Assembly (NCBI RefSeq): GCF_051622035.1
Contig: NC_135361.1
Location: forward strand, 29,443,205-29,507,204
Source: Arctopsyche grandis
Lineage: Eukaryota > Arthropoda > Insecta > Trichoptera > Hydropsychidae
Length of the DNA: 64,000 bases
Direction of reading: 5' to 3'
A program made the position numbers and the translations under genes. Under the pieces are notes generated by a model. The model was not told where the DNA came from. It saw only the letters and a program-made list of their open reading frames with translations, and made no database searches. Positions 52,277 to 57,171 of the stretch are shown one piece after another. The first letter of the stretch is position 1. The number at the start of each line of letters is the position of its first letter.

Positions 52277-54011
52277 ATGTATCAACCGAAAATCATTTCA
52301 CTGTTCATCTTTTCAACGACTACGATCTTTGTACTATCTGTCGGTGAGTATCAGCTAAATTTTACATATCATATTTTAGACTTTATTCGACGAATCCGTT
52401 TCTATTTGTGTATTGTATCTTTGATTAGATCTGAACTGCCAAACTCCTGATGATTTGCCAGGATTGTGTGTTTTGGACGTGGGATGTCCCCCATTAATGA
52501 AAATCAAAAATAACAAAGCCAGATCTCGAAACGATACTATTTTTTTCGCTCAGTCGTATTGTGGAAGTTTCGAGACGCACTTGAAAGTATGTTGTGATGT
52601 CAAAAAGACTAGTGAGTGCAATTTAAATCACAATAATAATATGTAGAATATGTATGTTATATCACTTCAATTCACTGTTCTGGATCGACTATTGAATATA
52701 TGTATGTAAGTTGTCTCAATTGATTTCCGTAACAATCGGTTTTAAACGGAAAAGTCTATTAATACTTATGTATATATGTATTTAGTTTCAAAAACTTTTC
52801 ATTTTGTTGTTCCTAATAATGTAATGCTATGTATAAGTATGCTACTAATTATTCTAGGCATAGCAAGCATAGCAAGCATAGCAAGCATAGCAAGCATAGC
52901 AAGCATAGCAAGCATAGCAAGCATAGCAAGCATAGCAAGCATAGCAAGCATAGCAAGCATAGCAAGCATAGCAAGCATAGCAAGCATAGCAAGCATAGCA
53001 AGCATAGCAAGCATAGCAAGCATAGCAAGCATAGCAAGCATAGCAAGCATAGCAAGCATAGCAAGCATAGCAAGCATAGCAAGCATAGCAAGCATAGCAA
53101 GCATAGCAAGCATAGCAAGCATAGCAAGCATAGCAAGCATAGCAAGCATAGCAAGCATAGCAAGCATAGCAAGCATAGCAAGCATAGCAAGCATAGCAAG
53201 CATAGCAAGCATAGCAAGCATAGCAAGCATAGCAAGCATAGCAAGAATAGCAAGCATAGCAAGCATAGCAAGAATAGCAAGCATAGCAAGATAAAACTAG
53301 ATTGAATTTAAACGTTTTTTCCTGTTGGCTAATATTCACAGCTGACTAATAAGTATCTCGTATTTTTTGCTCCACTGGAAACACCAAAAATTTATAGACT
53401 TTTAAATTGTCTACTATTATAATTACATTCATCTAAATTTTGTATATATAAGCAACGCGGTTTTTTTTTATTGTTGATCATCAGGGTCTCTAGAAATGAC
53501 AAGCACAAGTCGTTTAAGAAATAAATATACAACCTAAAAATCAAGATTTCCCAAAAATATGCTACAATCCAACTTATATTTATCTTTAATCAAAAATATT
53601 CCATTACGAATGGTTTTTTATATGAAAAGTTTATTTATGAAGACTTTTCAAAACAGGTTTCCAAAATTTCTAATTTTGAATAACGGATTTTCGGGAAATC
53701 TTTGGAAACCTACTGAATGACAGCAATGAATACTCTTAGAATTTGTGGTCTTGTTATAAATCGACGTTTCCAAGCCCTACATATTGTCAATTTATCTCAT
53801 AAAGGTGGATGTCCAAGCATTTTGGAACCTACAGTAAGTTTAGAATGTCATTACGGAGGGCAACAGATTTCGTGTAGTGAACTGATGGTTTTTGATACAT
53901 TAGTATATCCAACTTGTATGGAACGCTACGAACCATATAAACAGAATGCTTTGAATCCTCTGCGTTGCATTAATGGTAATTGGAATAAGCCCGTGCCAAA
54001 ATGTGTCCTCA
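52277..54011 (+). CDS. Clip domain and CCP/Wonton-like exons (secreted half)
   Basis: Exon 1 encodes the secretion signal (hydrophobic ISLFIFSTTTIFVLS) and ends in phase 1. Exon 2 is the whole clip domain: NCQTPDDLPGLC, VGC, SYCG and VCC. Exon 3 encodes a six-cysteine module (GCPSILEP, SLECHYGG, ISCSE, PTCMERYEP, LRCINGNW, PKC), most like the CCP/Wonton unit that precedes the protease domain in insect modular serine proteases. All three internal boundaries are phase 1, as in shuffled extracellular modules. If the exon 3 donor (CTCA|GTGAGT) is ignored, the frame stops at 54082. Confidence 0.8.
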
Positions 54012-57000
54012 GTGAGTATTCAATAATCGCCGAAATTATTCTATATCATCAATTTTTAATATTATTAATGTACCTTGCGTAATCCTTTACAGCCTGCTTG
54101 GATGGCTGGGATTGCAATGCTTACCTGGTCATTGGAAGCCTAAGGTATTTGTTATTATTTCATATTTGCTAACATTCAGTATTTTTTCAAAACATTGACT
54201 CAATATGGATTATAAAGATTATTAAAGAATACCTGGATTTTTCATAATTTAGTTCTATATAAATGATAAGGTGACCTTTCAATTGAGTTTTAGCTTTACT
54301 TAAACTGTGGTTATTTATTAATAGTGATTTGCATAACGTCTCCAAAACTGACATGTCTTAAAAATGAATGTATGTACATATGTAGATATCGAGTCAACAA
54401 ACAAAAGCTGTCAACTCATTGCAAATCATTAAATAGCGCCTTCAATTCTAACGGCAAAGAAGCTGTCGTTGATAATAAAGAAAATATTAATTCGAAGACC
54501 ATTCAAGACGTATTACATTTTTTGCATACAGGCAAAACTTACGGTGAGACAATTTTATTCAAGATAGTTTCATGATAATAGACTAATTTATAAGCCATTT
54601 TTAAAATTTCAGACTGGACGTCAGATCAGTATTCTGACGTCATGAGTTTATCTAGATCTTTAGAATCGAAGTATATAGAAGAAAATTGTATTAAATCATT
54701 TAGAAGCCACTTGAACGAAAACAACTATGTAAGACTATTGCGAATGTTAAACGAATCAAAAGACCAAATTTTGATGAAAGAAGTCCATGTTTATATTGCT
54801 AAAAATTTTAATAAAGTACGTCATCTTATATTTGATAATATGATCTATTTTAATTTGATTAAATACCCATTGTTTTGGAAATAGATTGCAATTGGAATGG
54901 AGTGGCTGGAACTGAATGCTACAGCTATTTCTGCAGCTCTACAATCAAACAAGCTAATCGCCAACTCTGAAGAGATTGTATTTGAAGGACTCAAAAGATG
55001 GAGCAAACACGATTGGCTGAATCGAAATAATCACTTTGTAGATCTTATGCAATATATAAGATTGAACGAGTTGTCTCGAGAAGTATTATATTTTTGTTTA
55101 TATAAAGTTCTATGTTGAACAACGGATCTTAATCTTTTCGAATGTGATAATCTCAGTTTTTAGTAAAGAATGTCAGTTTAATTTGCGATCAAACCAAACC
55201 GACCACCCGTTGTTACGACTTGGTTTTACCTGCTATAAATCGGAAGTTGCAAAAAGATCCCCCGATTTTTATAGTAAAATTTGGGGTAGTGAGTAAAGCA
55301 CATACACAAATTGAACATATGTATAAATTTCAATAATCAATCAACATCAAAAAATAATTTTTAGTTCAGTATTAGTATTGTGATTCATAAATCTAGCTCA
55401 TCATCGGAGATATTTTTCAATGATATTGACCTGAAAACAACTGTTCCCGAGCTTTGCAATAGGAAAATTTACTTTTTCGGCGGTAGAACGGATACATTAA
55501 AAGTTGCGGATGATGTGAGTTTACATAATTAGCGAAAATATTATTGAATGTGTCAATTTATAAAAAAAACATTTAATAATATTATCGATGCAGGTGTGGT
55601 CTTTGGATCTTGAAAAAAACCAATCGACCAAATTATCACCGTTGAAGAACAGACGAGAATCGTCACAAGCAGTTTGTATTGATGGGATGATATACGTTAG
55701 TGGTGGTACTGATATCAAGACAGTATGCAATACACTTGAGCGGTGAATTTAACATATAAAAGTCATGTATAAGGTTTGCAAATCAGTATGAAATATATTT
55801 TTATATTCTGATACTTCCTTTAGGTATGATCCTGTCGCAAAAACTTGGAATTTCATGGCCACAATGCCAACAAAGCGCGAAGAACATTTGGCGATAGTCT
55901 ATGAAGGCAAAATGTACCTTATTGGGGGACGAGAAAATAGGAAAGTCTTGGATTCAGTGGACATTTATGATCCGGAACTTGACAAGTGGACTTCCGGTCC
56001 AGTGATGAAAGTCCCTCGTTATAAACTAGTTGTAAGTTTCTATCAATACATTAATAGATTCGCGCATTATTAAGATTGTGTCTTCGATCAATGCGTTCTG
56101 CCAGTTATGACGTATGGATGTGAAACTTGGACAATAAGATGCTACAAAAAGTCCAATGCACTCAATGAAGTATAGAACATCGTAAGCTCGGCATAACGAG
56201 GAAAGACAGGAAACGAAACACGTGGGTGAGAAGTATGACAAGGGTAGTAGACGTAGTGGATAGAGTAAAGAGATTAAAATGGCAATAAATGTGGCTAGAA
56301 GAATGGACCAACGGTGGACAAAAGAAGTGCTTGAATGGTACCCGAGAGAATGCAAAAGGGTAAAAGGAAGACCATAGGGGAGATGGGTAGAAGAAATAAG
56401 GAAAATTTATGGGGTGAGATGGATGGGAGTTGCACAAAATGGAGGCGACTGCAAGCGTGTTGGAGAGGCCTTCATCCAGAAGTGGATAGTGAGCGGCTGT
56501 AGATGATGATTTCGATAAGTTTCAATTATTTAAAGCATATATAATCATTAACGAGTAAAATCTTACGATAAACAGTTGTTTGGGCATAAAGATTATGTTT
56601 AAACGTTGTATCACTTAATTTGTGAACCAAATATGTACAAACATCTGTTGCAGGGTACAGTTTTGGGTAAACAACTATTTGTTTTTGGAGGAATAAAATC
56701 TGGAGGTTCAAATGAACGTTCTGTGGAACGATTGGACTTCGAAACTCACGTGTGGACTAAAATTGGTGAAACACCTATTGAATTTTCAAATGTTATTTCA
56801 TTTGTCAAAGATAATACAATTAATATATATGGTTATTATATCCAACGAGGTGGTTATAGGATGGCAAGTTAGTGGTCATTACTTAAAATTTCAAGCTTGT
56901 TCAAAATTCTTCAATAAACTAGTACAAATATGTATAACTCTTGCAGGGTCGACAAAAATGTACGAGTTTAACCTTGAGACAAACGAATGGAAAAATATTG

Positions 57001-57171
57001 ACACTTTATGGGAAAAGTTATCATTTATAATTTCTGGGGAGAAAATGTGTAATTATGATAGTAAGTAAAATATTTTTATTTAATTCATATAAGTTGTCTC
57101 TTAGATGTTTCAAGCTTTTGTTTTTATTAGGTCGAGACAGGAATACAAACTTCAATGAGCTCTGTTATTAA
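52277..57171 (+). CDS. Composite gene: signal peptide-clip-CCP/Wonton-like-BTB-BACK-Kelch (635 aa)
   Basis: Exons 52277-52343, 52429-52611, 53805-54011, 54093-54144, 54386-54543, 54613-54815, 54885-55082, 55365-55514, 55594-55742, 55824-56031, 56654-56831, 56947-57060 and 57131-57171 join without a phase error. Every intron is GT-AG. Residues 1-22 form a signal peptide. A clip domain follows with cysteines 26, 36, 42, 67, 77 and 78. A six-cysteine domain spans 86-150. BTB runs from about 158 (WDCNAYLVIG), BACK from about 240 to 355, then five Kelch repeats. Clip and CCP/Wonton domains belong to secreted immune proteases; BTB-Kelch proteins are cytosolic Cullin-3 adaptors. No protease domain is present. 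The alternative is two neighbouring genes whose boundary is misread. The domain calls are firm; the fusion is inferred. Confidence 0.6.
52857..53294. repeat. 9-bp minisatellite (AGCATAGCA)n, about 48 units, in intron 2 of the composite gene
   Basis: The array is almost perfect, with a few AGAATAGCA units near its 3' end. Five of six reading frames are open through it, which creates the Ile-Ala-Ser, Ser-Lys-His, Leu-Ala-Met, Cys-Leu-Leu and Ala-Cys-Tyr repeat frames. It lies between the clip exon and the CCP-like exon. Confidence 0.97.
54093..57171 (+). CDS. BTB-BACK-Kelch (KLHL-type) exons (cytosolic half)
   Basis: BTB: exon 4 (CLDGWDCNAYLVIGSLR) plus exon 5 (YRVNKQKLSTHCKSLNSAF...DVLHFLHTGKTY) plus the start of exon 6. 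BACK: exon 6 (LLRMLNESKD...YIAKNFNK) and exon 7 (IAIGMEWLELNA...EEIVFEGLKRWSKHDW). Kelch repeats follow: IYFFGG, IYVSGG, MYLIGG, LFVFGG and INIYGG, each paired with a later Trp (KTW, DKW, HVW, NEW). Exon 4 cannot hold its own start, because a TAA lies in frame at 54080-54082 with no ATG between, so an upstream exon ending in phase 1 is required. The last exon may instead read through to a stop at 57068. Confidence 0.88.
56085..56515 (+). mobile_element. RTE-type LINE 3' fragment (+) in intron 10 of the composite gene
   Basis: Broken frames encode the C-terminal RT tail ([49 protein letters not shown]), ending near GTGGATAGTGAGCGG. It is the best-preserved of the three copies of this fragment (others at 26.9 and 27.3 kb). 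Minus-strand frames here are shadows. Confidence 0.75.

Follow-up and report, generated by a model that had tools for sequence, protein, structure and literature searches.

The DNA analysed here, referred to as the window, is a stretch of 64,000 nucleotides from the caddisfly Arctopsyche grandis (NC_135361.1, positions 29,443,205 to 29,507,204 of the forward strand). It lies on contig C7 of the 475.7-Mb genome; C-numbers in the following denote contigs of the A. grandis assembly. At window positions 52277-57171, on the forward strand, it contains a gene that places a front end of the kind found in secreted blood-protease proteins before a BTB-BACK-Kelch body. This gene corresponds to P0001, an NCBI-derived A. 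grandis protein (sources ncbi and uniref) named 'kelch-like protein 38 isoform X2'. Protein-to-DNA mapping placed all 691 of its 691 residues on 14 exons between 52277 and 57168, all of them GT-AG, and the frame ends with a TAA stop codon at 57169-57171. The domain order is signal peptide, CLIP, six-Cys Sushi-like module, BTB, BACK and Kelch. A first-pass annotation made from the letters alone had described a continuous spliced frame of 13 exons and 635 codons; the continuity holds, but P0001 gives 14 exons and 691 codons. The order of domains that it had read from the front end to Kelch, within a single frame, was borne out by the mapping of P0001 and by Pfam matches.

The gene has close relatives of the same build, and at least seven loci form a fused gene family in A. 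grandis. To locate the fused loci, the genome was searched separately for front-end and for Kelch sequences. Matches to clip, to the Sushi-like module and to BTB/BACK/Kelch were found in order on a single strand at C7:29.91 Mb (C7b), C2:3.86 Mb, C10:0.27 Mb and two loci of C9 (C9a and C9b, 0.85 Mb and 0.858 Mb); at C4:4.31 Mb front-end matches alone were listed, and the remainder was recovered by spliced alignment. The six paralogues were modelled with a spliced protein-to-DNA aligner. The phase-1 junction, the domain order and the strandedness are identical at all seven loci, a recurrence that goes beyond chance. The loci lie on five large contigs and show pairwise identities of 25-53%, at which synonymous sites will be saturated. 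Exon sizes are also alike, with 177-194 nt for the clip exon, 201-222 nt for the Sushi-like exon, 52 nt for the BTB entry exon (64 nt in C10), and 155-161, 203-212 and 198 nt for the next three (the last being 217 nt in the aligner model of C10 and 198 nt in P0008). P0008, named 'ectoderm-neural cortex protein 1-like isoform X2', is a second NCBI-derived fused protein of A. grandis. It is 34% identical to P0001, and all 652 of its 652 residues fall on 12 exons at C10. The other five fused loci were absent among the database proteins returned, which says little given the weak sensitivity of that search. The central proposal of the first-pass annotation, that a secreted clip/CCP front and BTB-BACK-Kelch belong to a single protein, is backed by six paralogous loci, two NCBI-derived proteins and signal-like first exons at all seven loci.

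In the window gene, exon 1 (52277-52343) holds the start codon and the predicted signal peptide (MYQPKIISLFIFSTTTIFVLSV) and ends in phase 1, as given by the mapping of P0001 and by a hydropathy and donor scan. Exon 2 (52429-52611), symmetrical 1-1, encodes the CLIP domain, which PF12032 matched in the whole protein with 42.5 bits against a cut-off of 20 (E 7.6e-11). The CLIP cysteines C26, C36, C42, C67, C77 and C78 are unchanged across the seven fused loci, and the closest solved structure to this exon by sequence is prophenoloxidase activating proteinase-2 (2ike, E 0.004). Genome-wide, 48 CLIP matches were obtained at E up to 1 (54/54 candidates scored); 7 belong to the fused loci, and at least 8 others sit ahead of trypsin matches.

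Exon 3 (53805-54011), also symmetrical 1-1, encodes the six-Cys Sushi-like module. The Sushi match PF00084 was under the cut-off in P0001 (13.8 bits against 20.7, E 0.077), and Pfam gave none in P0008. Six cysteines of this exon, C86, C98, C107, C121, C138 and C150, are unchanged at 7/7 fused loci. Wonton is defined in PMC10036332 as a Sushi-like module with six cysteines. The top front-end matches outside the seven fused loci are unfused exons of this type on C11 and C3, each followed by a phase-1 intron and an exon that starts with ECGLEK and runs on into CGGTII, with AAHC further along. GDSGG was seen downstream at C11 and not at C3, and the joined C3 piece gave a Pfam Trypsin match under the cut-off (E 0.0027). 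Since the six cysteines fit the Wonton definition and the C11 and C3 relatives precede serine-protease exons, the exon looks like a Wonton-type module, an assignment made by definition. The exon called 'CCP-like' in the first-pass annotation is Sushi-like, but a four-Cys CCP does not fit, and the label is refined to Wonton-type. With E-values up to 1 admitted, Pfam gave P0001 and P0008 no trypsin match (PF00089), and neither LDLa repeats nor SRCR came up.

An intron of 81 bp (54012-54092) separates the Wonton-type exon from the BTB entry exon. The latter, exon 4 (54093-54144, 52 nt), carries the junction with Cys154, Trp158 and Cys160 and the start of BTB. The phase-1 junction 54011/54093 and its same-strand 81-bp intron are as the first-pass annotation had proposed, and no ATG lies within the exon, which agrees with its statement that the BTB exon has no start of its own. 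BTB continues in exon 5 (54386-54543; PF00651, E 3.5e-7, residues 160-254) and ends in exon 6 (54613-54815), where BACK begins. Exon 7 (54885-55082) encodes BACK (PF07707, E 4.4e-17, residues 272-362), and exon 8 (55157-55288), placed by the mapping of P0001, its end and a linker. By Pfam and the mapping, the Kelch part starts in exon 9 (55365-55514), continues through exons 10 (55594-55742), 11 (55824-56031) and 12 (56654-56867), and ends in exon 13 (56947-57060); Kelch_1 has an E-value of 6e-39. Exon 14 (57131-57171) encodes the C-terminus and includes the stop codon. BTB, BACK and Kelch all lie above the curated Pfam cut-offs in P0001, and the KLHL-type series of BTB, BACK and Kelch repeats is present in order.

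First exons were sought by scanning for ATG exons that contain a hydrophobic stretch and end in phase 1 at a donor; the scan used hydropathy rather than a dedicated signal-peptide predictor. Each of the seven fused loci has a candidate signal exon, which lies 127 to 375 bp upstream of its clip exon. All seven near candidates passed the background thresholds (hydropathy 2.0, donor score 3), and the same scan was positive on 103 of 3000 random 375-bp stretches. At C10, the near candidate came second in rank to a more distant one; the near candidate, which had been listed from DNA, is the exact start of P0008.

Candidate signal-like exons were also seen at some relatives that consist of Kelch exons. 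Seven such Kelch-only stretches were read, and no BTB or BACK was seen in front of them. Kelch exon matches form a large cluster at C9:29.36-29.53 Mb and occur at C12:4.18 Mb, C7:5.7 Mb, C9:30.0 Mb and C9:28.79 Mb. In a laxer scan (any phase, longer stretches, without a background run), four of the seven Kelch-only loci had a signal-like candidate upstream (L056, L044, L042 and, doubtfully, L035), and L034, L036 and L043 had none. Two of these candidates are alike (MSHFGQKLLFSAIV and MTHGGQKLLFSAII). These are hints that Kelch-only loci may encode secreted proteins and thus form part of a wider secreted Kelch set.

The relationships of the fused loci were followed by domain. In the maximum-likelihood tree of BTB-BACK, which includes five ordinary KLHL genes, the seven fused loci form a single clade (98/97); the ordinary genes on C41 and at C10:2.2 Mb join beside this clade, and most BTB-BACK intron positions are common to them. 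Mean identity between fused loci is 42% in the front end, 32% in BTB-BACK and 36% in Kelch, so that the front end is best conserved, and its distances are correlated with those of Kelch (r 0.49, p 0.005). The two front modules each form a symmetrical 1-1 exon, an arrangement that permits in-frame joining and makes exon shuffling plausible. A single fusion followed by spread is the simplest reading. Most likely the family arose once, with phase-1 exons from a secreted clip/Wonton gene placed ahead of the BTB exon in an ordinary KLHL gene. Among the front-end matches listed, no clip or Wonton match falls at the possible Kelch relatives aligned on C41, C12, C7:5.7 Mb, C9:30.0 Mb or C9:29.4-29.5 Mb. 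Protein searches returned no fused protein from outside A. grandis, but their sensitivity was poor, as P0008 was missed by two of them, in one case even with an alignment that included the C10 gene model, and absence elsewhere is not implied.

The window gene thus probably encodes one secreted clip-Wonton-BTB-BACK-Kelch protein, a multivalent adaptor or decoy free of protease, with a single fusion at its origin. Several findings weigh against this reading, and they are considered here together with the rival explanations. The locus could hold two transcription units or give two products: one would be a short clip-Wonton protein that is secreted, the other a KLHL protein whose own first exon escaped detection, and the pair would have been duplicated as a cassette. 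We regard this as unlikely. KLHL genes are very numerous in the genome (at least 151 BACK matches, with 150 of 340 candidates scored), so that neighbourhood could be frequent. The introns ahead of the BTB exon at C7b, C9a and C4 contain an in-frame ATG that could in principle open that exon, and C7b also has such an ATG inside it. AATAAA and ATTAAA occur in this intron at C2, ATTAAA occurs in that of C7b, and the label 'isoform X2' on both NCBI-derived proteins implies other isoforms. However, at six loci the intron measures 81, 85, 70, 136, 80 and 103 bp, compared with 2938 bp at C2, and 70-136 bp is hardly space for a terminator plus a promoter. In the intron directly before the BTB exon, which is where the check was made as distinct from first exons farther upstream, no in-frame ATG could open the exon at the window locus, C2, C9b or C10 (4/7). 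The junction phase is common to all seven loci, both NCBI models span the junction, and Cys154, Trp158 and Cys160 are unchanged across the fused set. In contrast, the gene on C41, the sole ordinary KLHL relative whose start was read, resembles them in the size of its exons (155, 206 and 198) but opens with an ATG exon of its own, has no hydrophobic start and is without equivalents of Cys154 and Trp158. The short introns, the missing ATGs at four of seven loci and the contrast with C41 favour one protein; separate promoters for two products, which the first-pass annotation had left open, appear less likely on the strength of the introns and the ATGs.

A comparably low probability is given to a single protein whose Kelch part stays cytosolic, through an inefficient signal peptide or an internally started isoform, and still serves as a cullin-3 adaptor. 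BTB, BACK and Kelch all exceed the cut-offs of their hidden Markov models, and a link to Cullin3 has been described for galectin-3-binding protein, another protein with BTB and BACK (PMC12645945). For N-glycosylation sequons, no raised density was found. The fused set has 20 sequons in BTB-BACK against 15.3 expected (p 0.11, not significant) and 7 in Kelch against 7.1 expected; the ordinary KLHL genes have 6 against 7.8 and 6 against 6.1, respectively. A single sequon site shared by 5/7 fused and 0/5 ordinary genes is a hint at most. The fused set also has a conserved pair of cysteines where BACK ends; this pair was considered as a sign of oxidising surroundings and rejected because ordinary KLHL relatives have it. 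On the other hand, the signal-like exon at 7/7 loci argues against a cytosolic, cullin-3-binding KLHL role, and the candidates upstream of Kelch-only relatives point the same way. The His of the BTB 'VH' motif is replaced by Asn in 7/7 fused genes and kept in 5/5 ordinary ones. Cysteine is rarer in the fused BTB-BACK-Kelch part (24/2497 residues against 33/1716 in the ordinary set, p 0.0096, in a test that counts related sequences as independent). With regard to the single origin, the fused set is not one clade in the Kelch tree (2 changes), where the seven Kelch-only loci and two long-branch ordinary ones join near C7b (83/83). Front-end and BTB-BACK distances are not significantly correlated (r 0.29, p 0.19), nor are those of BTB-BACK and Kelch (r 0.18, p 0.21), and in the tree and composition data the models used for C2 (entry exon), C7:13.1 Mb and C6 contain errors. 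It is highly improbable that the family reflects an error of assembly or annotation, or that it is a decayed relic. The paralogue models are spliced predictions with partly uncertain 3' exons at C2, C9a and C4, and the aligner avoids stop codons, so that the open frames at paralogues are partly by construction; yet similar exon sizes recur at seven diverged loci on five large contigs, and two of the loci match NCBI-derived proteins over their full length.

The proposed secreted clip-Wonton-BTB-BACK-Kelch protein can be compared with several known systems. As in the insect modular serine proteases HP14/ModSP, a Wonton-type module stands ahead of a phase-1 intron that leads into a C-terminal effector part; unlike HP14/ModSP, the window protein has no detected LDLa repeats or serine protease domain, it has a CLIP domain, and its effector is BTB-BACK-Kelch. 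It shares an N-terminal CLIP with clip-domain proteases and serine protease homologs (SPHs), and its non-catalytic effector can be likened to cofactor SPHs (PMC7215089), but it is without any trypsin match. Galectin-3-binding protein (LGALS3BP), with a signal peptide, SRCR, BTB and BACK (PMC9266551), has a Cys-rich secreted module before BTB-BACK, as proposed for the window protein. In the window protein, CLIP and Wonton take the place of SRCR, and a Kelch propeller is not among the domains stated for LGALS3BP; the two arrangements are likely to have arisen independently. The BTB-BACK-Kelch body is that of KLHL proteins, with BTB-BACK intron positions common to the C41 and C10:2.2 Mb genes, whereas the predicted signal peptide, the CLIP and Wonton-type modules, the entry exon without a start codon and the change of the BTB His to Asn set the window protein apart. 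Attractin and MEGF8 are extracellular Kelch-propeller proteins and in this respect resemble the proposed secreted Kelch; they are not known to have BTB, BACK or CLIP.

No description of a clip-Kelch protein was found in the open-licence literature. PMC3654919, the single paper there to mention clip domain, BTB and kelch together, names clip proteases and kelch as separate genes, and the phrase secreted or extracellular Kelch was met in that literature in the fungal paper PMC2409186 alone. The clip-Kelch architecture is already present in public protein records under KLHL-type names, without comment in those seen, and names such as 'kelch-like protein 38' conceal it. If the proposed reading is true, the body of a cytosolic ubiquitin-ligase adaptor was joined to immune-protease modules, apparently once, and was kept at seven loci; the BTB-BACK-Kelch body would have been relocated outside the cell, and melanization/Toll networks would have a protease-free component.

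Secretion, oligomerisation, ligand and pathway are steps beyond the gene structure, and we infer them by combining what is known of the separate parts. Clip and Wonton modules occur in extracellular proteins of the melanization/Toll protease network (PMC7215089, PMC10036332), clip-domain protease homologs are cofactors in that network (PMC7215089), and galectin-3-binding protein carries BTB and BACK within a secretory-pathway protein (PMC9266551). The combination of network membership, SPH cofactor role and LGALS3BP secretion suggests a secreted adaptor. Such a protein would act in haemolymph or another extracellular fluid. Its clip and Wonton modules may bind members of the melanization/Toll network, either proteases or cofactors, in the way that clip-domain protease homologs dock there, and BTB and BACK may form dimers or larger assemblies, as in secreted galectin-3-binding protein. 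The Kelch propeller would bind a ligand. The outcome would be a multivalent adaptor or decoy with neither protease activity nor a role with cullin-3. Silk, eggs or gut are other candidate settings for such a protein. On a wider and much more tentative view, caddisflies may possess an extracellular KLHL branch in which secreted clip-Wonton-BTB-BACK-Kelch adaptors, perhaps with secreted Kelch-only derivatives in large tandem clusters, act as multivalent, protease-free proteins that regulate or recognise within the melanization/Toll network and BTB serves as an extracellular oligomeriser.

Other features were noted in the genome and in the window. The genome shows a very large KLHL expansion. KLHL matches of equal score and identity are arrayed on C188, at C41:704709-981108 and at the start of C2, about 7.4 kb apart on C188, at a similar spacing in part of the C41 array, and more widely spaced on C2. 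Within the window, a long 9-bp tandem array, (agcaagcat)n, with several frames open, fills about 52860-53290 in intron 2. By eye, the apparent tail of a retrotransposon reverse-transcriptase gene lies at about 56100-56500 in intron 11, a reverse-transcriptase gene similar to those of long interspersed nuclear elements at about 41500-44530 upstream, and a fragment of another reverse-transcriptase gene at about 59490-59930 downstream of the Kelch gene. Elsewhere in the genome, the CLIP exons at C6:8717067 (+), C1:19050512 (+) and C9:8838407 (-), loci L049, L050 and L051, lead to takeout/JHBP-like exons on the same strand. Seven of eight pieces match the takeout/JHBP family PF06585 in order, each singly under the cut-off, with one piece scanned at C9; these loci look like a second protease-free clip fusion.

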